Shown here: one piece after another, positions 18,255 through 49,713 of the stretch
Numbering within the stretch: position 1 is the stretch's first letter
Layout: each line of letters opens with the position of its first letter
Origin: Pseudanabaena sp. Chao 1811
Lineage (GTDB): Bacteria > Cyanobacteriota > Cyanobacteriia > Pseudanabaenales > Pseudanabaenaceae
DNA: 64,000 bases
Reading direction: 5' to 3'
Assembly (NCBI RefSeq): GCF_027942295.1
Contig: NZ_CP101416.1
Span: forward strand, 2,652,501-2,716,500
The notes under the pieces: generated by a model
The model's input: only the letters and a program-made list of their open reading frames with translations
Told to the model about the DNA's origin: nothing
Database searches by the model: none
Translations under genes and position numbers: made by a program

Positions 18255-21062
18255 ATGGAAATAGCGCAACCTATAAATTCAGGAATTTCTGAAATTTCAA
18301 GACCAGTTGGTTATCAAATCTGCGATCGCGAACAGATTCACTTATTGGGACATATTCAGTCCCACGGTGTGTTGTTGAGCATTCTTGAAGCAGATTTGCG
18401 AATAATGCAGGTGAGCGAAAACGCAATTCACTTTTTTGGCAAAAACGCCATATCTCTGATCAACCAACCTCTGAATGCAATATTTTCACAGTCTCAGATT
18501 AATACTCTATTATCTTTTACCACTCACCAAAATTTAGAAGTATTCAATCCAATTAAACTATCTGTTCAGATTAATCGGAAGAAATGCTGGTTTCAAGGCA
18601 TAATGCACCGTGCTGATGGACTACTCATTTTAGAATTAGAACCTTTATCGGAAGATCCGACTCCTAATCTGGGATTTTATTACCTAGCAAAATCTGCGGC
18701 AATTAATGTTAGAGAAGCGAAGGATTTTGATGAAATATCGGATTTACTAGTTAAAGAAATTCGGAAGATAACTGGATACGATCGCGTACTCATCTACAAA
18801 TTTGATTTGGACAATAGTGGAGTTGTGATTGCTGAGTCTAAAGCTGAAGAGCTAGAACCTCTGTTAGGATTGCATTATCCAGCCTTTGATATTCCTGAGC
18901 TTGCCCGTAAACTCTATTACAGAAATTGGTTGCGCCTAATTGTTGATTTAAACTGCCAACCTGTACCAATTATCCCCCTCAATAATCCCATTACGCAGAA
19001 ACCCCTTGATTTGAGCCTTAGCACCTTGAGAAGTGTTTCGTCGTTTCATGTGAAATACTTACAAAAAATGGGGGTTTCAGCTTCTTTAGGCATCTCTCTA
19101 ATTAACTCAGGCAAGCTATGGGGATTGATTGTTTGCCATCATTATTCACCTAAGTATATAGACTATGAGACTAGAAAGACTTGTGAGTTTTTAGGTCAAA
19201 TCATGTCTGTGGAAATTGTCCATAAACATGAGCAATACCTTAAAAAAGCCCAAGATAACATCAAATTTATTCAAACTAAACTGAAGCAAGATATTCTAGA
19301 AGGCTATCAATTAGTTAATTATACTTTTCTTCAAGATATAGAGAAACTACTCGATTTAGTCAATGCTAACGGAGCAATCATTTGCTTCGGAGATCGCATT
19401 TCTGAAATTGGTACATGTCCACCGCCAACATTTGTTTCTAATTTGTTGGAGTGGTTAGAGCAGAAGTCTCAAGATGTTTTTTATACTAATTGCTTAAGTC
19501 AGTTATTGCCTGAAGCAATGGAGTTTAAGGATAGGGCAAGTGGATTATTATCTATTTCTATTAAGCTTAATCATACTTCTTATCATATAATTTGGCTTCG
19601 TTCTGAAGTTGTACAAACTGTTAACTGGGCAGGTGATCCGAGCAAATTGTTAGATATTGATGATGATTTTGATCCATCACCTCGTCGATCTTTTGAATTA
19701 TGGAAAGAAACCGTTAGAGCTAAATCCTTACCTTGGGATGAAGTGGAAATTGAAGCTGCTTTAGAATTGAGAGGTACGTTTATGCTGGCAGCTTTAGAGT
19801 TTTCACAACAGGCTCTAAAGCAAGAGGCAGAACACTCTGAAGTGGCAAATCGGGCTAAAAGTAGTTTTCTAGCAAGAATGAGTCATGAGTTGAGAACTCC
19901 TCTAAATGCGATTTTGGGATGTACACAATTGATGAGTCGAGAAGATGGACTTACTGAAGCGCTTGGAGAATATGTCAAGATTATCAGTCATAGTAGTGAA
20001 CATTTGCTTAACTTGATCGATGATGTTTTAGAAGTATCTAAAATTGAAGCAGGAAAGATAATTCTGGAAGAGTCAATATTTGATTTGCAGCTATTTCTCA
20101 ATAATCTTCAGGAGATGTTGCAAATTAGAGCAAGAGATAAGAACTTGCAGCTAATTTTTGCGATTCATCCCAGACTGCCGCAGTATATTAAGGCGGATGA
20201 GCGTAAAATTCGGCAGATTTTATTGAATCTTTTAGGTAATGCGATTAAGTTTACGCACAAAGGCTACATAATTCTTCGTGTCTCATTAGTAGATACAGAT
20301 CAGGATCTCTCTAAGTCAGTTATTCAATTTGAAGTAGAAGACACTGGCTGTGGAATTGCTCCAGAAGAAATTAATAATTTGTTTGAAGCTTTTGTGCAAA
20401 CGGCTTCAGGTCGAGCATCACAGACAGGTACAGGTTTAGGTCTAGTGATTAGCCAACAGTTTGCAAGGTTTATGGGTAGTCATATTCAGGTGAGTAGTAC
20501 TTTAGGTAAAGGTACAATTTTTCAATTTGAACTGACTATTGAGAATGTGGCTACTCCAGAGTTGAAGGTAGAGCAGGAAGTTGATGCTGTTAAGCCTCTA
20601 GCTATATTGCCATTGGCGGATATCCAGATAGAGCAAAATCAAAGTATCCAATATATCACGGAGAAAATTACTGATGAGAATCATAAGCAATCTTTGAGAA
20701 TTCTGTTGGTCGAAGACAACACGTTTAATCAGATGATCGCTTTACGACTTCTAGCGAAATTAGGATATTATGCGGATTGTGCAATGAATGGCTTAGAGGT
20801 GTTACAAGCCTTGCAAAATAAATCCTATGATTTGATTTTAATGGATGTTCAGATGCCAGAAATGGATGGTTTAGAAGCTACTCGTAGAATTCGGCTAATT
20901 GAGAAAGATGGAGATACCGTTAATAAAATCAAAATTGTGGCAATGACTGCAAATGCAATGAAGGAAGATCGAGAGAAGTGTATCTTAATGGGAATGGATG
21001 ATTTTATTAGTAAGCCTGTGAGGATAGAAGATCTCAAAGGGGTGTTAAAAAAATTTGCTTGA
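18255..21062 (+). CDS. Bacteriophytochrome-type hybrid histidine kinase (PAS-GAF-PHY-HisKA-HATPase-REC)
   Basis: Red/far-red photoreceptor kinase, 935 residues. The N-terminal PAS domain opens with CDREQIHLLGHIQSHG. Cys23 is in the position that binds biliverdin in bacteriophytochromes. The GAF domain (about 148-325) has PAFDIPELAR in place of PASDIP. At the site of the cyanobacterial Cph1 Cys it has Phe264, followed by the conserved His265. The PHY domain shows WAGDP and the tongue PRRSF (476-480). HisKA has phospho-acceptor His544 in SHELRTPLN, then an HATPase domain with DTGCGI and GTGLGL, and a C-terminal receiver with Asp864 (ILMDVQMPEMDG). All signalling residues look intact. The ATG follows AGGTGATGGG. 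The output partner is not in the window. Confidence 0.9.
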   Translation: MEIAQPINSGISEISRPVGYQICDREQIHLLGHIQSHGVLLSILEADLRIMQVSENAIHFFGKNAISLINQPLNAIFSQSQINTLLSFTTHQNLEVFNPIKLSVQINRKKCWFQGIMHRADGLLILELEPLSEDPTPNLGFYYLAKSAAINVREAKDFDEISDLLVKEIRKITGYDRVLIYKFDLDNSGVVIAESKAEELEPLLGLHYPAFDIPELARKLYYRNWLRLIVDLNCQPVPIIPLNNPITQKPLDLSLSTLRSVSSFHVKYLQKMGVSASLGISLINSGKLWGLIVCHHYSPKYIDYETRKTCEFLGQIMSVEIVHKHEQYLKKAQDNIKFIQTKLKQDILEGYQLVNYTFLQDIEKLLDLVNANGAIICFGDRISEIGTCPPPTFVSNLLEWLEQKSQDVFYTNCLSQLLPEAMEFKDRASGLLSISIKLNHTSYHIIWLRSEVVQTVNWAGDPSKLLDIDDDFDPSPRRSFELWKETVRAKSLPWDEVEIEAALELRGTFMLAALEFSQQALKQEAEHSEVANRAKSSFLARMSHELRTPLNAILGCTQLMSREDGLTEALGEYVKIISHSSEHLLNLIDDVLEVSKIEAGKIILEESIFDLQLFLNNLQEMLQIRARDKNLQLIFAIHPRLPQYIKADERKIRQILLNLLGNAIKFTHKGYIILRVSLVDTDQDLSKSVIQFEVEDTGCGIAPEEINNLFEAFVQTASGRASQTGTGLGLVISQQFARFMGSHIQVSSTLGKGTIFQFELTIENVATPELKVEQEVDAVKPLAILPLADIQIEQNQSIQYITEKITDENHKQSLRILLVEDNTFNQMIALRLLAKLGYYADCAMNGLEVLQALQNKSYDLILMDVQMPEMDGLEATRRIRLIEKDGDTVNKIKIVAMTANAMKEDREKCILMGMDDFISKPVRIEDLKGVLKKFA

Positions 21063-37988: not shown

Positions 37989-38493
37989 ATGAATGCAAGT
38001 CCTCATTTACATTTCTTTACGTTTAACTATAATAGCAATCCTCAAGCATTTTGAGATCTCTAACGCTGTGTAAAGAGAGCATCCGCAGGGTCTACCAATT
38101 GAAAATTTCTTATAAGTAGCTAGGTGCAATTAAATATAAAACCCAAAAAGCTGTGGCGCACGCTGCGCGTGCGCCACAGCTTTTGACTATGGTTTTTAAT
38201 TATGCCCAACTACTTAGTAATCCTCAATGGATGATGAGAAAAAGTCTCTATATCAGTTACTAAAATCCTATCAATTATTTAAGCAACTATCATGCAATTA
38301 ATTAGGATGAAAATGATAGATTTCTTAATTGATTTCACTGATTCTTTTTTTATATTCTTAATGTACAATACGTGCAAATATTTTATTTTCAAGCAAGCAG
38401 GATACTAAGGGGTGACAAACATAGCTTTAAACCTATAGAGATCATTCTTATTATCCTTTGCTAGATTATTGTGAGTTTGTGGAGGCGGCTCAT
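37989..38493. other. 505-bp intergenic region
   Basis: Divergent region between the hydrolase and the porin. It contains one MITE-like element at 38113-38216. The AT-rich stretch 38330-38370 with TACAAT near 38363 could be a -10 for the porin. I see no gene or other structure. Confidence 0.5.
38113..38216. mobile_element. MITE-like element (TAAGTAG family, copy C, best preserved)
   Basis: Imperfect 22-bp terminal inverted repeats (17 matches) start with TAAGTAG at 38113 and end with CTACTTA at 38216. They enclose AAAGCTGTGGCGCACGC and its palindromic partner. If the outer TA pair is a target duplication, the ends are AGTAG...CTACT, as expected for IS630/mariner-type insertion. No coding capacity. 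Confidence 0.7.
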
Positions 38494-40281
38494 ATGACTT
38501 ATAGAGTTTATGTAGATAGGCAAATATTGTTGCGACTATTCGCATCTTCTTGGCAGTTTTTGCTATTTTTTGTTGTGTCTGTAATAGGATTTGACACAAG
38601 TGCGATCGCTCAGACTAAATCAAAGCTGAACAACAATCAAATTAGTAATCAAAAGGATGTCTCAAAATCTCAGGTTGAAAGAAAAGGAAATCTGCAAAAC
38701 TCTTTGGTAAATCTCCAAGATTCTTCAAATCTTGTTGTTTCTCCAAATGAAAATGTTGATACAAATATCTCGCAATCAGTGACATCGGTTTCTCAATTGA
38801 GTGATGTGCGATCGACTGACTGGGCATTTACGGCTTTGCAATCTTTAGTTGAACGTTATGGATGTATTGCGGGTTATCCAGATTATAAATTTCGTGGTCA
38901 ACAAGCTATTTCGCGTTATGAATTTGCGGCAGGTTTAAATGCTTGCTTAGATAGAATTAATGAAATCATTGCTACAGGTCTATCAGACAAAGCTAATAAA
39001 GAAGATCTGGCAACTATCCAAAAACTTCAAGAAGAATTTGCAACGGAGTTATCTGTGTTGCGTGGTCGGGTAAATACGTTAGAAGCAAAAACTGCCACCC
39101 TAGAAGCACAGCAATTTTCAACAACAACCAAACTCTTCGGTCAGGCAATCTTTGGATTGCAGGGGCGTTTTGGCAATACGGCTGATATTTTCCCGCGAAA
39201 TGGTATTCGGACAGCAGGTGAAGTTGATCAAGGCACAAATGTCACCTTTGGCTATAACTTGGGAATCACATTCCTCACTCAGTTTGATGCCTTCAATCGT
39301 AGTATCCTCCTTGTGGGATTAAATTCGGGTAATTTAGCTCTTAATTCAGGACTGCTATTACGAGATAGTTATACATTACTCGGATATGAGGGAACGACGG
39401 CTAATCAAATCACTCTGTCCGATCTCTCCTATCGTTTTAAAGTTAGTAATAATGCTGCTTTCATTATTGGTGCGGCTGGAGTTGCTCCTAGTGCTGTATT
39501 TCGTGGTCCCAATCGTGTAGAAAGTTCAGGAACTGGTCCAATTTCCGCCTTTGCTCAGCGCAATCCGATTTTAGGGCTTGGTGCAGGTAGTGCAGGGATC
39601 GGGTTTGACTGGCAGATCAGCGATCGCATTAGTTTGCAAGGTGTATATGCCGCAGGTGATCCTGCTAATCCTACTAAGGGAGGACTGACGGGTGGTTCGT
39701 ATGTTACAGGTGTACAAGCTATGCTGAGACCAACCGATTCGATTGATACAGCGCTTTATTACCTGCATTCATATACGACAACTGGCTCCCTCAATACTGG
39801 TATTGGCGATAGTGTAATTGGTCTTGGCTCGAGTTTTTTAACTGATGCGATCGGGGCAACTCTCAACTGGCGGATTAGCCCCTATGTAACTTTAGGGACA
39901 TGGGGTGGCTATACCAAATCTAATGCGGTTATTGGTGCTTCGGGTACGGTGGAAACTACGAACTGGATGGTCTATTTGAACTTTCCCGATCTGTTTAAGC
40001 AAGGGAATCTAGGGGGGATTTATATTGGACAACCGCCCAAAATTACGAGTAGTAATTTATCAATTGGTAATGTCCCTAGTTTTCTAAATAGTGCTGGATT
40101 TGCTAGCGAAGTAGCAGGTGCACAGCCTGCTAGCACAACCCATCTAGAACTTTTCTATGTGCATCGACTGACCGATCGCATCAGCATTACCCCTGGGCTG
40201 ATCTTTTTGTTTAATCCTGCCCAGACTTCAACAAGTGACACAGTCACGATTGGCACAATTCGCACGACTTTCTCATTCTAA
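38494..40281 (+). CDS. SLH-domain porin, iron uptake porin family
   Basis: Outer-membrane porin of the SomA/Slr1908 type, 595 residues. The start is the ATG at 38494 (MTYRVYVDRQILLRLF), 7 nt after GGAGG. A signal peptide ends near IAQ. A single SLH domain (VRSTDWAFTALQSLVERYG, then GYPDYKF and ISRYEFAAGLNACLD) binds the cell-wall layer. A coiled coil (about residues 180-205) follows, then an OprB-like beta barrel ending in TFSF with the terminal Phe typical of outer-membrane proteins. Members have been linked to inorganic iron uptake. The next gene, encoding a CHAT protein, is 44 bp downstream. Confidence 0.92.
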   Translation: MTYRVYVDRQILLRLFASSWQFLLFFVVSVIGFDTSAIAQTKSKLNNNQISNQKDVSKSQVERKGNLQNSLVNLQDSSNLVVSPNENVDTNISQSVTSVSQLSDVRSTDWAFTALQSLVERYGCIAGYPDYKFRGQQAISRYEFAAGLNACLDRINEIIATGLSDKANKEDLATIQKLQEEFATELSVLRGRVNTLEAKTATLEAQQFSTTTKLFGQAIFGLQGRFGNTADIFPRNGIRTAGEVDQGTNVTFGYNLGITFLTQFDAFNRSILLVGLNSGNLALNSGLLLRDSYTLLGYEGTTANQITLSDLSYRFKVSNNAAFIIGAAGVAPSAVFRGPNRVESSGTGPISAFAQRNPILGLGAGSAGIGFDWQISDRISLQGVYAAGDPANPTKGGLTGGSYVTGVQAMLRPTDSIDTALYYLHSYTTTGSLNTGIGDSVIGLGSSFLTDAIGATLNWRISPYVTLGTWGGYTKSNAVIGASGTVETTNWMVYLNFPDLFKQGNLGGIYIGQPPKITSSNLSIGNVPSFLNSAGFASEVAGAQPASTTHLELFYVHRLTDRISITPGLIFLFNPAQTSTSDTVTIGTIRTTFSF

Positions 40282-40325
40282 AAAATGGATTGTAAAAAAT
40301 ATAGCAAAGTGATAGAGCAAAGTTT

Positions 40326-41768
40326 ATGAAAATACGTTCGTTGATGTGGAAAACTGGATGTGCTGTTGTAATTGGAGTGATTTGCAGTGTTGCTCCTTCC
40401 TCAGTACAGAGGAGTACTGCTCAATATGCACCGTTGCCTTCTCCTTCTATTAGTTTTTCTCCTAGTAGTAGTTTTACTCCTACTCCCCCCGGACCGCCGA
40501 TTGTTTTCCCGACTGCCTCACCTGGAGTAATTTGCGATCGCTTAACAAATACAATATGTGGTTATACTCCTCCTACTCCTAAGGGACCTAGCATCGGTGA
40601 GCTAGATAACAAAATAACTAGAGATGTGTGTGCCTATGCAAAGTGTTCGTCACCTTCGCCAGTCACTCTTGAATATGTTCAAGATGCAATGCAAAAGTCA
40701 GCACAGGTTACAGATAGTGCCACTGCTTTGGTTTACCCCAATATCTTTCCCGATCGTATAGAGATTTTAATCGTGCCATCGTCGGGGAAAGAAATCCGTA
40801 AAGTTGTTCCCAATGTGCAAAGTTCCGAAGTAACTGAAACAGTCCAAGAGTTTCTCAATTCTTTGCGCGATTCTAGTAATGAGGATTACTTACCCCTAGC
40901 ACAGAAGCTCTATAACTGGCTAATCCGACCAATAGATGAAGATTTACAGTCAGAGGGAATCAAAACTCTAATTTTTGTGATGGATGGTCCTTTAAGGTCA
41001 ATTCCGATTAGTGCTTTGCATGATGGTAATAAATTCGTAGTTCAGAAATATGCCACAGCAACCATCCCATCAATGGGTTTGGTTAATTTACAGTTACGCG
41101 ATCGCCGCCGTTCGAGCATACTTGTGATGGGGTTAACTCAGGCACAGCAGGGATTTACGGCTTTACCGAATGTGGAAGTTGAAACCAATGTAATCGCCGC
41201 TAAGATTTTGCAAGGCAATCTGTTTCTCAATCAGGACTTTACGATTGACAACCTCAAGAAGCAGCAAAGTAAAAACAACTATGGAATTGTCCATTTAGCG
41301 ACTCATGCGCAATTCTTGAGCGATAACATTGATGGTGCTTTTATTCAGTTTTGGAATGAGCGGCTTTATCTTAACAATCTTCGCACCCTTAGATTGGGAG
41401 AAGAACCAATTGAAATGCTGACCTTGAGTGCCTGTGAGACCGCAGTAGGAAGAAACTTAGGGCTTAGTGGTATGGCTCTTGTATATAAAGCTAAGAGTGT
41501 ACTTGCATCACTATGGACAGTTAGTGATGCAGGCACTACGCCCTTGATGTTGTCTTTTTACGGTTATTACCCAACTTCTAAAAGTAAGGCGATCGCAATT
41601 CAGCAAGCGCAATTAGATTTGTTAGAAGGCAAAGTGCGAATTGAATCTGGACAGATCAAGGGAGTTGGTAATCTACCTGCAATTCCTCTCAGTCAGGTTA
41701 CAGGTAATATAAACCTCAAACATCCGTACTTTTGGGCTTCCTTTGTTTTGGTGGGTAATTGGCTCTAA
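40326..41768 (+). CDS. Secreted CHAT-domain protein
   Basis: 480 residues. The N-terminus has a signal-like hydrophobic stretch (TGCAVVIGVICSVAPSS). A Pro/Ser/Thr-rich linker follows, then a CHAT caspase-like domain at about residues 190-480. The expected catalytic pair is present: His327 in LATHAQF and Cys370 in LTLSACETAVG. The C-terminal HPYFWASFVLVGNW is the CHAT signature end. No TPR repeats are present, unlike many CHAT proteins. It is probably co-transcribed with the porin upstream and ends in a strong terminator. Proteolytic activity and substrate are unproven. Confidence 0.88.
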   Translation: MKIRSLMWKTGCAVVIGVICSVAPSSVQRSTAQYAPLPSPSISFSPSSSFTPTPPGPPIVFPTASPGVICDRLTNTICGYTPPTPKGPSIGELDNKITRDVCAYAKCSSPSPVTLEYVQDAMQKSAQVTDSATALVYPNIFPDRIEILIVPSSGKEIRKVVPNVQSSEVTETVQEFLNSLRDSSNEDYLPLAQKLYNWLIRPIDEDLQSEGIKTLIFVMDGPLRSIPISALHDGNKFVVQKYATATIPSMGLVNLQLRDRRRSSILVMGLTQAQQGFTALPNVEVETNVIAAKILQGNLFLNQDFTIDNLKKQQSKNNYGIVHLATHAQFLSDNIDGAFIQFWNERLYLNNLRTLRLGEEPIEMLTLSACETAVGRNLGLSGMALVYKAKSVLASLWTVSDAGTTPLMLSFYGYYPTSKSKAIAIQQAQLDLLEGKVRIESGQIKGVGNLPAIPLSQVTGNINLKHPYFWASFVLVGNWL

Positions 41769-43088: not shown

Positions 43089-44159
43089 TTACCAGTTGGA
43101 AGATTGTCCAGAACTTCGCAAGGTAGCAATATCTTGAGCGATCGTTCCTTTGGGATTGGGCAAGCCTAATGCTTCTAAATCCGCATCAACCATCAGCTCA
43201 ACCAAGCCCTTAAAGGTGACTTTGGGTTCCCAACCCAGCTTTTGCTTTGCCTTAGTGCAATCACCCAATAGCAAATCAACTTCGGCAGGACGGAAATAAC
43301 GGGGATCGATCTCTACATAGTCTTCCCATTTGAGATTGACGTAAGCAAAGGATTCTTCGAGAAACTCACGCACAGAATGGGTTTCACCAGTTGAGATCAC
43401 ATAGTCATCGGGCTGATCTTGCTGCAACATTAACCACATTGCCTCAACATAATCTTTGGCATAGCCCCAGTCACGCTTAGAGTCGAGATTGCCCAAGTAA
43501 AGCTTTTTCTGAGTACCTGCAACGATACGTGCGATCGCCCGTGTAATTTTGCGAGTAACAAAGGTTTCACCACGACGGGGTGACTCATGGTTAAACAAAA
43601 TGCCATTACAAGCAAATAGTCCATAGGATTCGCGATAATTCACAGTTTGCCAATGGGCATATACCTTGGCACAGGCATAGGGACTACGAGGATAAAAAGG
43701 GGTTGTTTCACTTTGAGGTACAGCTTGGACTAAGCCGTACATTTCTGATGAACCTGCTTGATAAAAACGAATTTCTTTATCATTACGTTGTTGATAATCC
43801 CTTAGAGCTTCTAGTAAGCGTAAAGTCCCCATACCCACGGCATCAACGGTGTATTCGGGGGAGTCAAAACTGACACGCACATGGGACTGCGCTCCAAGGT
43901 TAAATACTTCATGAGGCTGTACAGCTTCTAAAATACGTCCTAAGGTCGTGCCGTCAGTCAAATCGCCATAGTGCAGAAATAATTTGGTTTCTGGTAGGTG
44001 CGGATCTTGATACATATGATCAATGCGATCGGTATTGATCGTTGAAGAACGACGAATGATCCCGTGGACTTCGTACCCTTTAGCTAATAAAAGTTCTGAT
44101 AAATAAGATCCATCTTGACCCGTAATGCCTGTGATTAAAGCGCGTTTGGATGTACTCAT
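43089..44159 (-). CDS. gmd: GDP-mannose 4,6-dehydratase
   Basis: First committed step to GDP-L-fucose and GDP-D-rhamnose. [19 protein letters not shown] has the NAD(P) GxxGxxG, the active-site Ser is in QAGSSEMYG and Tyr/Lys in [31 protein letters not shown] is diagnostic. 356 residues is normal. It is the upstream partner of fcl. Confidence 0.96.
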
Positions 44160-44308
44160 GAAGTATGCTTTGAAAGAACTCTACAAGATTTTACTCGCTA
44201 GCATACCTAATAAATTCTCTAGTTTGTGAAGATTTCATAGTAATCAGTGAAAAGGCTTAAATTGTTAGAGAAGCAATATAGCTTCCTCTAGATTTCATTA
44301 TTAAGAAA

Positions 44309-46030
44309 CTATAAACATTTACCATCGATCAACATTTTCTCAAACTCAGCGGCTGGTAGTGGCGGACTAAAGAAATATCCCTGCATCTGATCACAACCAT
44401 GTTCTTTTAGAAACTGTACCTGTTCCGCAGTTTCTACACCTTCGGCAATAACTTGAAGTGACAAACTATGTCCCAAATCAATAATTGCTAAGGAAATGGT
44501 GGCATCATGGCGATCAGTAGTGACATCTTGGATAAAGCAGCGATCGATTTTGAGCGTATTTACTGGAAAATGTTTGAGATAGCTTAGAGATGAATAGCCT
44601 GTACCAAAGTCATCGATCGCTACTTTTACTCCCATTTGCTGCAACTGTGATAAAACGCCAATCGTAAATTCTGCATTTTGCATAATGATGCTTTCGGTGA
44701 GTTCCAGCTCCAAATGATGTGCCTCAGTACCACTTTCCTGTAGTATTTTGCCGATGATTTCGATTAAGTTATTGTCTGGGCGAAAATGCTGACCAGATAG
44801 ATTAACCGCAACAAATCCATAATGTATTCCTGATTCTCGCCATGATCGCATTTGCTCACAAACTTCTCGGAGGATTAACTCACTTAACCGAAGAATTAGT
44901 CCTGTTTGCTCAGCAACGGGGATAAACTTGCTGGGCAGAATGATTCCCAGATCAGGATGTTGCCATCTGGCTAATGCTTCTGCGCCAACAATTTGTCCTG
45001 ACTGAAGACTGATTAGGGGCTGATAAAAGACTCGAAATTCATAGCGATCAAGTGCCCGATGTAGACTATTAGCTAACGCCATGTACTCCGAGGATTGGAC
45101 ATTTAGCTCTGAGCTATACAACTTGTAGCTATTTCTGCCGTGGGTTTTAGCATAGTACATTGCCAATTCGGCATTTTTAATTAATCCATCTGCGTCTTGT
45201 TGATCATCAGGAAAGATGGAGATGCCAATGCTACTGGTAATGAAAACCTCATGACCATACAAGTTATAGGGACGACTTAATAGATCTAGAATTTTTTGGG
45301 TTTCAAGTTTGATGCTCATCGGATCTCTAATATCAGAAATGATCATGGCAAACTCGTCACCCTGCATTCTCGCTACCATATCGCAGGGAGCTGTATATCG
45401 CTTTAAACGTTCTGCGATCGCTTTGAACAATTGGTCGCCAATATCATTACCAAGAGTGTTGTTAATGATATTGAAGTTATCCATATCCAAAAAGAGTAAG
45501 GCTAGGGATTTATTGTTGATTTTGGCATGGAGTACAGCTTGGCTTAAGGACTCATGAAACAAAATTCGATTAGGTAATTGTGTCAGTCCATCATGGTGAG
45601 ACAAATATTCAAATCTTGCTCCTACGGCTTTGATCTCGTCATAATAATGTTCTCGAACGGAATTGTATTTTTGTAAGCGGGAGGCGATCGCCCCTAATAA
45701 CTCCGCAGAAGTAAATGGCTTAGTGAGATAGTCGTCTGCCCCCATTTGCATTGCTTGACGCATATCTGCCTTTTCCGTCATCGCCGTTAAAAATATAAAC
45801 GGAATCATTGACGTTTTTGGCTCTTGGCGCAGTGCCATGAGCGTTCCATAGCCATCTAGCTCTGGCATGGCGATATCGCAGATAATTAAATTTGGTAGAT
45901 AGGTTTTGGCAGTCTGTACCCCCACGACTCCATTCTCAGCTCCCAATACATCGAATCCTTCATAGGAGAGCGTCTCCATGATCTCTTCGCGTAAAGCTTC
46001 TACATCTTCGATTACTAGAATCGTTGTCAT
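44309..46030 (-). CDS. Response regulator REC-GGDEF-EAL
   Basis: 573 residues. The receiver domain (1-120) has Asp52 as phospho-acceptor (LIICDIAMPELDG) and Lys in LTKPF. The GGDEF domain (about 145-300) reads MQGDEF in place of GGDEF and has no RxxD I-site just upstream, so cyclase activity is doubtful. The EAL domain (about 320-560) has EALARW, NLSG, ELTES, DDFGTGYSSL, LKIDR and AEGVET, all residues expected of an active c-di-GMP phosphodiesterase. It starts 61 bp downstream of the LOV kinase on the same strand. I infer that the kinase phosphorylates it to tune c-di-GMP breakdown. Confidence 0.93.
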   Translation of the reverse strand: MTTILVIEDVEALREEIMETLSYEGFDVLGAENGVVGVQTAKTYLPNLIICDIAMPELDGYGTLMALRQEPKTSMIPFIFLTAMTEKADMRQAMQMGADDYLTKPFTSAELLGAIASRLQKYNSVREHYYDEIKAVGARFEYLSHHDGLTQLPNRILFHESLSQAVLHAKINNKSLALLFLDMDNFNIINNTLGNDIGDQLFKAIAERLKRYTAPCDMVARMQGDEFAMIISDIRDPMSIKLETQKILDLLSRPYNLYGHEVFITSSIGISIFPDDQQDADGLIKNAELAMYYAKTHGRNSYKLYSSELNVQSSEYMALANSLHRALDRYEFRVFYQPLISLQSGQIVGAEALARWQHPDLGIILPSKFIPVAEQTGLILRLSELILREVCEQMRSWRESGIHYGFVAVNLSGQHFRPDNNLIEIIGKILQESGTEAHHLELELTESIIMQNAEFTIGVLSQLQQMGVKVAIDDFGTGYSSLSYLKHFPVNTLKIDRCFIQDVTTDRHDATISLAIIDLGHSLSLQVIAEGVETAEQVQFLKEHGCDQMQGYFFSPPLPAAEFEKMLIDGKCL

Positions 46031-46091
46031 GATTTTATTTTTTCTATCAAAGTTTGTAGCTTAAAACGAGCAGATAGCAACTCTGCTGATT

Positions 46092-48890
46092 TTAACCCGT
46101 AGATATAGGTAACTTGACTCGCACGGTAGTACCTTGATTTTCAACACTAGTAAGTTGAATTGTGCCACCGAGAATGTCAATTGAATTTTTGATAATTGCC
46201 ATTCCTAAACCCGTTCCTGCAATCATACCAACATTATGAGCGCGATAAAAATGCTCAAATATCTTTTCTTTGTCAACTTCAGGTATGCCAATTCCTTTGT
46301 CTTGAAATTCTAATAATAGCTTAGGTATCCGATCGTTAGTTTGAGAGATCGTGAAATAGACCTCCACACTATTTGGGGAATACTTAATCGCGTTAGACAA
46401 TAGGTTGGAAATAATTTGTTTAAAAAACTTAGTGTCAATTACGATATTAGTAGGTGTATTGATATTTTTGAAAATGACTTTATGCTTACCATTTCCTAGC
46501 AGCTTTGTCTGTTCAATTATTTCTAAACAAAATTTTTCTAGATTAATTGTCTCGCCCCGTACTTCAAATTTTCCTGATTCAGTCTTGCCAATAACTAATA
46601 CCTCCTCTAATAGGTTAGTCATGCCTTTAACTTCACGTTGGATTTTATCAATTCTTTCTAGCTTTTTATCCTCTGACATCTTATGTCCATAGTTGCGGAG
46701 TAGATCGCTTGCTGTTTGGATAGTAGCAAGGGGAGTCCGAAACTCATGGGAGGCTCTAGAAATAAATTGGGATTTTAGTTCGTTTAACTCTTTTTCCTTG
46801 CGTAAAGCTCGTTCGAGTTGACTGAGGCTTTGTTCTAGTTGTTGAGTTCGATCGGCAACCTGTCGCTCCAGATTTTTGTTGAGATCTTGGACTCTTTCAA
46901 ATAGTTTGACCTGTTGAATAGCGATCGCCACATGATTAGCTAATTGCTTGAGTAAATCAAGTTCAAATTCTTCCCACTGACGGGCTTCTAAACATTGATG
47001 GGCAATGAGCAGCCCCCATAATGTATCTCCAAAGGAAATTGAAGCGACAATATTTGCTTTGACTTGAAAACATTGTAAAAGCTCTTTATGGCAAGGGCTT
47101 AAATCGGCAAGCTCAACATCATTGATACTGGAAATTGCTTGATTCTTATAACGTTGGGCATATTCTTGATTAAAACAAGGATCGTTAACTGTTTTTCCAA
47201 GAATCGATAATGATGAATCGTTGACAGCTTCGACAACAAATGTACCGCTCCAATCATCTTGGAATTGGTAAATAGCTACACGATCAATACGTAATAGTTC
47301 CTGAGTCTCTTTAACTGTAATTGCTAAAATTTGATCAAGATTTAATTCACGTTGAATCTTAAGTAAAATTCCATTTAGTAAGCGTTCTCTTTCACTTTGA
47401 TACAGTAGTTGGGTTTCAACTCTTTTGCGTTCAGTAATATCATAATAGCTACTTAAATACATCCGTTTCCCTTTATAGGTCATGATTCTTGTGGATACTA
47501 AAACATCCTTGAATGTACCGTCCTTATGACATATACGGGTTTCAACGGTATTTGCTCGACCAGTTTCTTGAAGTTGTTGCAATCTTTGTAAAGCTTTGTC
47601 ATGTTCGCTGCGATCAGGATATAAAAAATTGGTGAAATCTTGACTCGCATTTGCTTCGTTGATTGTATAGCCCGTGAGATTTTCCATCCCAGAATTAAAA
47701 ATTGAGAAATAGCCTAGGTCATCACTAAAGGTGATCCCTTCCTTAATAGAAGTAAGGACTGTGCGCAACCGTTCTTCACTTTCTAGTAATCTTTGGGTAG
47801 ATTTTACTTGCTCCGTAATATCGGTTTGAATGCCGATATAGTTGGTGAGTTCACCATGATCATTAAATACTGGCGCAATATATAGATCATTCCAAAAGGG
47901 TGAGCCATCTTTGCGGTAGTTGAGTAATACAGCGTGACATTCCCGTTTTTCTTGAATGGCTTGATGTAGATCTAAAATGCCAATCTGATTGCGATCGCCT
48001 CCTTGTAAAAATTTACAGTTACGTCCAATCACCTCAGCCGCACTGTAGCCTGTAATCCTCTCGAAGCTAGGATTGACATAGATTATCGGGTTGTCTGGTT
48101 GAGTGGCATCAGTAATCACAATTCCGTTAGAACTTGCTGCGATCGCCCGTTCGCGTAATTTCAAAGATTCATCTATACGATTACGTTCAGAGACATCCCG
48201 TAAAGAAGCAACTACATACACCATGCGATCTTCGTCTATGGCTTCTGATACGCGCATTTCTGCTGAAGTGGTCTTGCCTCGGTTGAGAATATCGATATCG
48301 ATACTTTCTCCAGCAACTATAGGCAGACCAAAACTTTCGCCGACAATATCTTCAGCTTTACAACCAAAAAGTTCTTCAGCAGATTGATTAACGTAGCGAA
48401 CAATGCCTTCGCGATCAACCACGACAAAAGCATCGGAAACAGAACTCACTAAATGACTGAATTTTTGATCGTTGGTATGTTTAGTTAGAGATTTTGATCG
48501 CGATAAATTTGTAATATCCTGACAAGTCCCGATAATCTGCTGTGAATTGTCGCTATCACAAGTTTTGAGGGATAAAGAAATTAAGAGAAGCCGATTGGTG
48601 ATCAGATTGAGTTTCGCCTCATACTCAACCCGTTGTTGCGATCGCAAGCATTCACTGACATGGCTGTTTAATAGCTGTGTAAATTCTGAGGGTAAGCATT
48701 CATGGGGTTGTAAACCTATGAGATCAACGGTTTGATCAATACTCCGTTCTCCAAATACGAGATGGACAAAGGGAAGATTGGCGATCGCAAAGCGCATCTC
48801 AAAATTGAGACCATCACTTGATCCCTCTGGGTTTGTTTCAATCGTCAGGACAAAAATTCCGCATTGAATATGATCTAGGATATTTTGCAT
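46092..48890 (-). CDS. Multi-PAS histidine kinase with a photoactive-type LOV domain
   Basis: 932 residues from the ATG ending at 48890; a TTG 7 codons upstream is also open. Domain order: PAS-like (1-125), PAS (about 145-250), LOV (about 260-375), PAS (about 380-495), GAF (about 510-660), coiled coil, HisKA with His715 in SHEFRTPLATIQ, and HATPase with DKGIGI and GTGLGM. The LOV domain reads GRNCKFLQ, with Cys292 where the flavin adduct forms. It also has Asn in LNYRKDG, Asn in FWNDLYI and Gln in GIQTDIT, the full FMN-contact set of LOV photosensors. No receiver is attached; the REC-GGDEF-EAL gene follows. It is divergent from the HMA gene. Confidence 0.9.
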   Translation of the reverse strand: MQNILDHIQCGIFVLTIETNPEGSSDGLNFEMRFAIANLPFVHLVFGERSIDQTVDLIGLQPHECLPSEFTQLLNSHVSECLRSQQRVEYEAKLNLITNRLLLISLSLKTCDSDNSQQIIGTCQDITNLSRSKSLTKHTNDQKFSHLVSSVSDAFVVVDREGIVRYVNQSAEELFGCKAEDIVGESFGLPIVAGESIDIDILNRGKTTSAEMRVSEAIDEDRMVYVVASLRDVSERNRIDESLKLRERAIAASSNGIVITDATQPDNPIIYVNPSFERITGYSAAEVIGRNCKFLQGGDRNQIGILDLHQAIQEKRECHAVLLNYRKDGSPFWNDLYIAPVFNDHGELTNYIGIQTDITEQVKSTQRLLESEERLRTVLTSIKEGITFSDDLGYFSIFNSGMENLTGYTINEANASQDFTNFLYPDRSEHDKALQRLQQLQETGRANTVETRICHKDGTFKDVLVSTRIMTYKGKRMYLSSYYDITERKRVETQLLYQSERERLLNGILLKIQRELNLDQILAITVKETQELLRIDRVAIYQFQDDWSGTFVVEAVNDSSLSILGKTVNDPCFNQEYAQRYKNQAISSINDVELADLSPCHKELLQCFQVKANIVASISFGDTLWGLLIAHQCLEARQWEEFELDLLKQLANHVAIAIQQVKLFERVQDLNKNLERQVADRTQQLEQSLSQLERALRKEKELNELKSQFISRASHEFRTPLATIQTASDLLRNYGHKMSEDKKLERIDKIQREVKGMTNLLEEVLVIGKTESGKFEVRGETINLEKFCLEIIEQTKLLGNGKHKVIFKNINTPTNIVIDTKFFKQIISNLLSNAIKYSPNSVEVYFTISQTNDRIPKLLLEFQDKGIGIPEVDKEKIFEHFYRAHNVGMIAGTGLGMAIIKNSIDILGGTIQLTSVENQGTTVRVKLPISTG

Positions 48891-48988
48891 AACAGCCACA
48901 TCCCTTACCAACTATCGCGGTTATAGTAATTCTACCTTGCCAAATTGCTTAGGGCTTTATAATTTAAGATCATTTACTAACATCTCCT

Positions 48989-49183
48989 ATGTCTTTAACG
49001 CTCTCAGTTCCTTCGATTGGTTGTGCTAGCTGCATTGAAACTATTACCAAAGCGATCCAATCTGCTGATACTTCGGCATTGGTGACTGGTGATCCTGCTG
49101 CTAAGACAGTTAATATTGAGACTCAGTTACCTGAAGCCCAAATTCGTGAACTAATTAAGATCGCAGGGCATAAGGTTTCCTAA
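48989..49183 (+). CDS. HMA-domain metallochaperone (Atx1-like)
   Basis: 64-residue ferredoxin-like metal-binding domain. The metal site is in VPSIGCASCIETITKAI, with the CxxC Cys pair, and the C-terminus has AQIRELIKIAGHKV. In cyanobacteria such proteins pass Cu(I) to P-type ATPases of plasma and thylakoid membranes. No ATPase gene is adjacent. The canonical Atx1 Met before GC is replaced by Ile, which may alter metal preference. Confidence 0.85.
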   Translation: MSLTLSVPSIGCASCIETITKAIQSADTSALVTGDPAAKTVNIETQLPEAQIRELIKIAGHKVS

Positions 49184-49200
49184 AATTCAGTAAATTCGGA

Positions 49201-49713
49201 TTAAAGATCACAAAATGCCCCTCTAGGTGCATTAAAGTCTCCTGACTTCCCGCCACTTTTATGCAATAACCTTGCATTGGAGATAACCATTGTTTTGTCT
49301 AAGGATTTTGCCATATCGTAAATGGTTAAAGCCGCGATCGTAACTGCGGTCAATGCCTCCATCTCTACTCCCGTCTCAGCCTTGGTCTTGACATCTGCCT
49401 CGATCTGATACCCAGGAATATTTTCATCGAGGATGATTTTGACATCCACACTGGTTAAGTTGAGGGGATGACACATGGGGATTAAGTTAGCAGTTTGCTT
49501 TGCTGCCATAATACCTGCGAGCCTTGCTGTTCCTAAGACATCTCCTTTGGGGACATCTCCTGCTTGGATGGCATCTAAGGTTGTTGTTTTCATGGATATT
49601 TCGCAAACTGCGATCGCTCGTCGTACCGTTTGCGGTTTATGAGTCACATCCACCATTTGAGCATTACCACTTTGATCAAGATGAGCGAGTGACAGAGGAG
49701 TATCCGTATCCAT
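49201..49713 (-). CDS. moaC: Cyclic pyranopterin monophosphate synthase
   Basis: Second step of molybdenum cofactor biosynthesis. [21 protein letters not shown] at the start, [16 protein letters not shown] and [23 protein letters not shown] are diagnostic, with the active-site His and Lys residues in place. 170 residues is normal. It is alone here, without moaA, moaB or moaE nearby, and is convergent with the HMA gene. Confidence 0.95.

Follow-up and report, generated by a model that had tools for sequence, protein, structure and literature searches.

A candidate light-controlled two-component system in Pseudanabaena: a kinase with predicted LOV and cyanobacteriochrome sensors beside an EAL-domain response regulator

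Introduction

In cyanobacteria, c-di-GMP is known to be under the control of LOV domains as well as of cyanobacteriochromes, two well-known kinds of photosensor. Neochromes, found in plants and algae, combine bilin and LOV sensors and use a phytochrome for the former, and Ppr uses PYP. Both are cited, ahead of tandem cyanobacteriochrome arrays, as proteins in which a single chain carries several photosensor modules (PMC9614035). SL2 of Synechococcus elongatus is a LOV-GGDEF-EAL protein whose activity rises in blue light (PMC8846402, PMC5812497), and SesA and Cph2 are blue/green cyanobacteriochromes that control c-di-GMP (PMC5812497). About 18% of bacterial LOV proteins carry GGDEF or GGDEF and EAL domains, and the soluble photoreceptors that co-occur most in bacteria, counted within organisms, are those of the LOV and bilin-GAF superfamilies (PMC4844311).

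Here, we analysed a locus of Pseudanabaena sp. Chao 1811 located in a window of 64,000 nucleotides (the whole stretch of DNA considered; contig NZ_CP101416.1, positions 2,652,501 to 2,716,500). A previous sequence-only reading had described it as a LOV-type blue-light kinase, with extra PAS and GAF sensors, next to a REC-GGDEF-EAL regulator, with blue light controlling c-di-GMP breakdown by phosphorelay.

Results

Organisation of the kinase

The kinase gene encodes a protein of 932 residues from the ATG at 48890, and the cysteine of its GRNCKFLQ motif is residue 292, in agreement with the numbering originally proposed. An alternative TTG start is located at 48911, 21 nt upstream of the ATG. 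The domain order is a PAS-like N-terminus, PAS, LOV, PAS, cyanobacteriochrome GAF, HisKA and HATPase_c, with the following features:

46092..48890 (-): histidine kinase, 932 aa (ORF, Pfam, PDB matches, relatives)
48171..48464 (-): PAS domain, approximately residues 143-240 (Pfam PAS_8, best stretch 143-188; end approximate)
47796..48152 (-): LOV domain, residues 247-365 (Pfam, PDB sequence and structure matches)
48015..48017 (-): Cys292, predicted flavin-adduct cysteine in GRNCKFLQ (Cys in 29/30 aligned relatives)
47421..47783 (-): PAS domain between LOV and GAF, approximately residues 370-490 (PAS fold in model; boundaries approximate)
46911..47342 (-): predicted cyanobacteriochrome GAF, DXCF class, residues 517-660 (Pfam GAF; PDB 6oap E 1.9e-41; TePixJ 4fof E 4.8e-28; 4glq Z 23.6)
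47175..47177 (-): Cys572 of DPCF, corresponding to TePixJ Cys494, the second, C10-linking cysteine (27/30 aligned relatives)
47091..47093 (-): Cys600 of SPCH, corresponding to TePixJ Cys522, the canonical bilin cysteine (27/30 aligned relatives)
46572..46775 (-): HisKA, with phospho-acceptor His715 at 46746-46748 (Pfam; His in 30/30 aligned relatives)
46104..46436 (-): HATPase_c, retaining the N, G1 and G2 box residues N833, D864 and G892 (Pfam; each in 30/30 aligned relatives)

The Pfam matches to the kinase include neither a REC domain nor a PHY domain, and the protein thus lacks the PAS-GAF-PHY arrangement of a phytochrome. No Pfam name covers the full architecture, and among the matches listed the NCBIfam equivalogs fall below their own cut-offs. 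The host genome, a single contig of 4.73 Mb, is rich in kinases and returned 159 matches to the kinase query.

A second photoreceptor kinase is located in the window at 18255-21062 (+). This protein of 935 aa has the order PAS_2-GAF-PHY-HisKA-HATPase-REC, with an N-terminal cysteine in QICDREQ and no cysteine at the usual GAF position (RSVSSFHVKYL), a pattern that we take to resemble a biliverdin-binding bacteriophytochrome rather than the Cph1 type. At 38458-41768 (+), the window also contains a gene for an OprB-type porin that carries an SLH domain and, after it, one for a CHAT-domain (caspase-like) protein.

The LOV domain

In a sequence search of the PDB, the LOV region matched PF5-LOV (PDB 7r5n, E 9.8e-45) and a Meiothermus LOV domain (PDB 9vf7, E 3.3e-39), which bears out the original description of a LOV-type kinase with Cys292 at the adduct position. 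An AlphaFold model of kinase residues 240-680, built with 27 sequences, had a mean pLDDT of 86.4; its pTM of 0.48 reflects an uncertain domain arrangement, and inter-domain geometry was therefore not used. The LOV fold in this model is supported by Foldseek (VIA-align rows mostly span model residues 145-430), with 7r5n, 9vf7 and 7a6p matching at rmsd values of 1.0-1.7 and chain 7r5n_B at 1.0 over 135 columns. The many LOV structures matched by sequence and by Foldseek rule out a chance motif or a generic PAS domain.

Asn324, Asn334 and Gln355, which we take to be LOV flavin contacts, are present as initially read, and are retained in 29/30, 27/30 and 29/30 aligned relatives, respectively. The adduct motif of the relatives is of the GR[ND]C type; of the 30 aligned kinases, 9 have Asn and 20 have Asp at residue 291. 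The residue following the adduct cysteine is lysine (Lys293) in the window copy and arginine in 22/30 relatives, and position 309 is occupied by histidine in the window copy and by arginine in 18/30. We assume that these positions are the usual arginine sites for the FMN phosphate; Lys293 and His309 may therefore weaken FMN binding in this LOV domain. Elsewhere in the same genome, one other frame, of 1213 aa, gives a strong LOV match (E 4.6e-46); three further matches are weak (E 6e-12 to 6e-15) and may represent PAS domains of the ordinary kind.

The GAF domain as a predicted cyanobacteriochrome

When the GAF region was searched against the PDB, 22 sequences matched at E <= 1e-10, with cyanobacteriochrome GAF domains or proteins derived from them on top: 6oap (E 1.9e-41), miRFP670nano (E 8.8e-35) and entries of the AnPixJ/TePixJ type (1e-30 to 3e-27). 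These top matches, together with the lack of PHY in Pfam, rule out that the domain is of the generic or the phytochrome kind.

The GAF domain of the model aligned with the blue-absorbing TePixJ GAF structure (PDB 4glq) with a Z score of 23.6 and an rmsd of 2.3 over 149/149 residues, model residues 275-423 lying on chain residues 436-584. Based on these equal spans, and provided that the structural alignment is gap-free, Cys572, Cys600, Asp570 and His601 of the kinase fall on C494, C522, D492 and H523 of TePixJ. In TePixJ, C522 and C494 are the two cysteines that form thioethers with the bilin, and D492 and H523 lie beside the chromophore (PMC6955287). As in other domains of this kind, the canonical cysteine of the kinase is followed by a histidine (Cys600-His601).

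The WXDXXL tryptophan that defines the XRG class (PMC11284453) is absent: the position is V568 in the window copy and V or I in 30/30 relatives. This rules out the XRG class, even though the best match, 6oap, has a tyrosine at the DXCF cysteine site. Typical DXCF domains absorb blue light in their dark state and switch to a photoproduct that absorbs green light (PMC11284453). Bilin supply is represented in the genome by one gene of the ferredoxin-dependent bilin reductase family (PF05996, E 2.2e-73). Together, sequence and model lead us to predict a two-cysteine DXCF cyanobacteriochrome whose bilin input is probably blue/green. The GAF domain described earlier is thus present, but as a predicted bilin photosensor with Cys572 and Cys600 and not merely as an extra GAF sensor.

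The response regulator

The neighbouring gene encodes a response regulator with the following features:

44309..46030 (-): response regulator REC-GGDEF-EAL, 573 aa, 61 nt past the kinase stop codon (ORF, Pfam)
45875..45877 (-): REC phospho-acceptor Asp52 (Asp in 29/29 rows)
45350..45364 (-): QGDEF (Q223-F227) at the GGDEF site (motif reading, aligned rows)
44360..45070 (-): EAL domain with E351, N410, E446, D473, D474, K494, E530, E533 and Q550 (Pfam EAL E 3.4e-74)

Pfam domains and motif residues agree with the earlier assignment of REC-GGDEF-EAL with an altered MQGDEF and an intact EAL set. We take the listed EAL residues, including those of the DDFGTG loop, to have catalytic roles. Eight of them (E351, N410, E446, D473, D474, K494, E533 and Q550) are kept in 28/28 rows reaching those positions, and Glu530 is replaced in 4/28, by glutamine in three genomes (G002-G004) and by lysine in L091; the alignment rows contain near-duplicates, such as G007 and L104. 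At the GGDEF signature, 23/28 rows have QGD[EQ]F, and the others have RGDEF (G001), RGDVF (G005), GGDEF (G004), GGEEF (G003) and GEEVF (G002).

The window copy reads RMQGDEF at this site, and its I-site position reads APCD, with no RxxD. From the motif readings of the window copy and the aligned rows, we rejected a normal cyclase. Based on this signature and the lack of an RxxD inhibitory site, the GGDEF domain is probably not a cyclase and phosphodiesterase is the likelier output of the regulator. Degenerate GGDEF domains with a regulatory role have precedent, and by analogy the domain is perhaps regulatory here.

Pairing of kinase and regulator

At a cut-off of E <= 1e-110, the kinase was found in 34 of the 38 genomes of the order searched, including 26/26 of the genus. 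The regulator lies directly downstream on the same strand in 29/30 loci, with gaps of 8-398 nt; in locus L030 the contig ends within the regulator. It also follows the kinase in four further genomes (G001-G004), which brings the arrangement proposed from the window to 33/34 kinase-bearing genomes. In the exception, G036, and in G037, the regulator is located elsewhere (58% identity) with no kinase adjoining. G033 encodes the regulator at 52% identity and has no kinase at E <= 1e-110, and G034 and G035 contain weaker regulator matches (42-43% identity). The regulator can thus occur where this kinase is not its neighbour, and its presence in G033, G036 and G037 (52-58% identity) indicates that it can have partners other than the kinase.

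A scan of positions 43900-49300 gave 11 promoter-like sites against 15.5 expected and no terminator-like sites against 3.5 expected. Operon structure was therefore deduced from orientation and spacing only. Upstream of the kinase, at approximately 49000-49190 (+), a short protein of heavy-metal-associated type (MSLTLSVPSIGCASC..., identified by eye) appears to be encoded between the kinase and a moaC-like gene at 49201-49713 (-). Since the strand of this short protein is the opposite one, the kinase probably stands first in its operon.

Sensor loss among relatives

All three photosensor cysteines are present in 25/30 aligned kinases, or in 26/34 if G001 is included on the assumption that its two contig pieces are one gene. 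Both cyanobacteriochrome cysteines are kept in 26/30; L023 lacks Cys600 and L036 lacks Cys572. In L027 (G008) and L028 (G015), both are lost (DSNF, SYK), and the LOV domain and the regulator are intact. The reverse loss is seen in L039 (G036), where the LOV cysteine is replaced by alanine and the two-cysteine GAF is kept, and in G002-G004 (L042, L041 and L040, respectively), where the LOV domain is deleted, DHCF and the canonical cysteine are kept, and the regulator still adjoins. The regulators of these three genomes differ in their motifs, with GEEVF, GGEEF and GGDEF at the GGDEF site and AQGIE versus AEGVE.

This pattern of loss fits two separable inputs into one output, and, given the partial losses, neither predicted photosensor is indispensable. 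In a tree of the kinase core, 12 of 31 inner branches within the genus were left open, branches were long and the label test returned no separate origins; given this poor resolution, we did not count independent sensor losses.

Occurrence of LOV and cyanobacteriochrome motifs in one kinase

At E <= 1e-58, the LOV-PAS-GAF stretch had matches in 20 of the 386 genomes searched in the phylum. Among 19 matching loci outside the genus, LOV and cyanobacteriochrome cysteine motifs occurred together in one, G233 (L052). This genome, which lies outside the order, encodes an 814-aa LOV-PAS-CBCR kinase with DPCF and KCH (L071, 4075-6516), and no REC-GGDEF-EAL neighbour was found among the ORFs of the 10-kb stretch.

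In a second, named genome collection, for which the best 80 of 160 loci were considered, both motifs were found in 18/22 Pseudanabaenaceae-type loci (L085-L106), which share contigs with the G-numbered loci and are not independent samples of them. Only one of the 58 other loci among these 80 contained both motifs; these are regular-expression counts, which unusual motifs can escape. The locus in question, L116 (2202-7400) of Microcoleus vaginatus WJT46, encodes a 1733-aa kinase with the LOV motif GRNCRFLQ and a DXCF cyanobacteriochrome GAF approximately 700 residues apart, and none of the neighbouring proteins with at least 150 aa is such a regulator. LOV, GGDEF and EAL motifs in one chain, as in SL2, were present in 26 of the same 58 loci, and 11 of the 80 had no LOV pattern. 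All of these counts depend on the patterns and on the query ranking of matches, and a LOV and cyanobacteriochrome kinase with another domain order would escape them.

In the literature searched, mostly open-access and as titles and abstract openings, we found no description of a natural kinase with both LOV and cyanobacteriochrome sensors. The modules are known, and their combination and pairing with the regulator were not found described in that literature.

Discussion

Based on sequence, fold, motif and synteny evidence, we favour, with some reservation, a light-controlled two-component system in which a LOV domain and a DXCF cyanobacteriochrome would act on one kinase and the neighbouring EAL regulator would be its target. 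For this system we infer chromophore binding, photocycles, direction of control, phosphotransfer, phosphodiesterase activity and a c-di-GMP phenotype. In blue light, the LOV domain would form a Cys292-flavin adduct. The DXCF GAF would bind a bilin (phycocyanobilin or phycoviolobilin) through Cys600 and, reversibly, through Cys572, with a dark state that absorbs in the blue and a photoproduct that absorbs in the green. Both sensors would act via helical linkers on one HisKA/HATPase core; as LOV, PAS and GAF are arranged in series upstream of this core, both signals should reach it. Phosphate would then move from His715 to Asp52 of the adjacent regulator, whose EAL phosphodiesterase activity would change as a result. 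Since blue light would convert both sensors and green light would reset the bilin sensor only, the output would read blue versus green plus blue intensity. The sign of each sensor's effect cannot be told from the sequence.

With respect to the sequence-only reading, the LOV kinase, the conserved pairing, the degenerate GGDEF and the intact EAL domain all stand; the single photoreceptor input gives way to one with a second, predicted bilin sensor. Blue light controlling c-di-GMP breakdown is accordingly a reasonable but incomplete reading, and the response to light may be more than a plain blue one. Strictly speaking, a single kinase acting on a single-step response regulator would be a case of phosphotransfer and not of a multi-step phosphorelay.

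Loss of the cyanobacteriochrome cysteines, both in L027 and L028 and one in L023 and L036, next to a LOV cysteine conserved in 29/30 kinases, would also be expected if only the LOV domain worked as a photosensor. The GAF would then bind bilin poorly or not at all and serve as a structural relay, and the pair would be a plain blue-light kinase with a phosphodiesterase regulator. The LOV region is also better conserved than the GAF within the genus (mean column identity 0.931 versus 0.869). We nevertheless consider this reading unlikely: both cysteines persist in 26/30 aligned kinases and in G001-G004, three of which have no LOV, and this would be surprising for a mere relay. The opposite assumption, that in practice only the bilin GAF senses light and the LOV domain serves as a flavin module of the redox or constitutive type, appears highly improbable in view of the retention of the LOV cysteine, N324 and Q355 each in 29/30 and of N334 in 27/30 aligned kinases, although the two-cysteine GAF outlasts the LOV domain in G002-G004 and its cysteine in G036, and the window copy has Lys293 and His309 at the arginine sites.

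The choice of target can be questioned as well. A kinase that senses light but acts mainly on another regulator, leaving the neighbouring REC-GGDEF-EAL protein partly or not controlled, would agree with the close regulators that have no adjoining kinase (G033, G036 and G037) and with intergenic gaps of up to 398 nt. However, the regulator is the downstream, same-strand neighbour in 33/34 kinase-bearing genomes across several genera of the family, and the kinase itself contains no REC domain; we therefore regard a different main target as distinctly unlikely.

Under the two-sensor reading favoured here, motility or clumping would be a plausible target of the pathway, since Pseudanabaena is motile and phototaxis is described in one strain (PMC8365994; the passage available makes no mention of c-di-GMP). 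With both sensors in series on one core and relatives in which one has been lost, the system would offer a way into two-signal integration by a bacterial kinase. The LOV-less kinases of G002-G004 and the cysteine-less cyanobacteriochromes of L027 and L028 could serve as natural single-sensor controls for the combination of inputs. The system could show how blue intensity is told apart, in cyanobacteria, from the ratio of blue to green, which serves as a proxy for depth or shading, and is a possible natural template for two-colour optogenetic kinases. Even if only one sensor works, the pair would still link light to c-di-GMP by a pathway that is conserved throughout a genus of mat-forming, motile cyanobacteria.

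Several proteins with matching structures resemble the kinase in part. The best PDB sequence match of its GAF domain, 6oap (E 1.9e-41), is a cyanobacterial GAF-containing kinase that we take to be Anacy_2551, a "dual sensor histidine kinase"; it has tyrosine at the DXCF cysteine site, and the match covers the GAF region only, with no LOV. The TePixJ GAF, which is 34% identical overall according to the model alignment, shares the fold and the DXCF and canonical cysteine positions. The annotation of TePixJ entries is that of methyl-accepting chemotaxis proteins, whereas the Pseudanabaena GAF is part of a LOV-PAS-GAF histidine kinase. Brucella LOV-HK and engineered LOV kinases, which are the top Foldseek hits (6ph4, 6pps), have the LOV-PAS-kinase order, but their matches span LOV-PAS and not the bilin GAF.

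In terms of output, SL2 resembles the kinase-regulator pair as a cyanobacterial LOV domain that controls a GGDEF-EAL output. In SL2 a single chain holds everything, and LOV is the light sensor, whereas in Pseudanabaena the LOV and GGDEF-EAL domains lie on two separate ORFs, with a kinase step and an added bilin sensor. SesA and Cph2 share with the pair a two-cysteine or blue/green cyanobacteriochrome input to c-di-GMP metabolism; their bilin domains are fused directly to GGDEF or EAL domains, without a kinase step, and no LOV is described in the part of the source available. Neochrome and Ppr carry two photosensors per chain like the Pseudanabaena kinase, whose bilin module differs in being a single-GAF cyanobacteriochrome without PHY. 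More tentatively, and with slightly less conviction than an even chance would warrant, the kinase may be a bacterial counterpart of neochrome, in which both sensors would be photoactive and jointly set the phosphorylation of the regulator, acting as a meter of the blue versus green ratio and of intensity that would make filaments motile or sessile.
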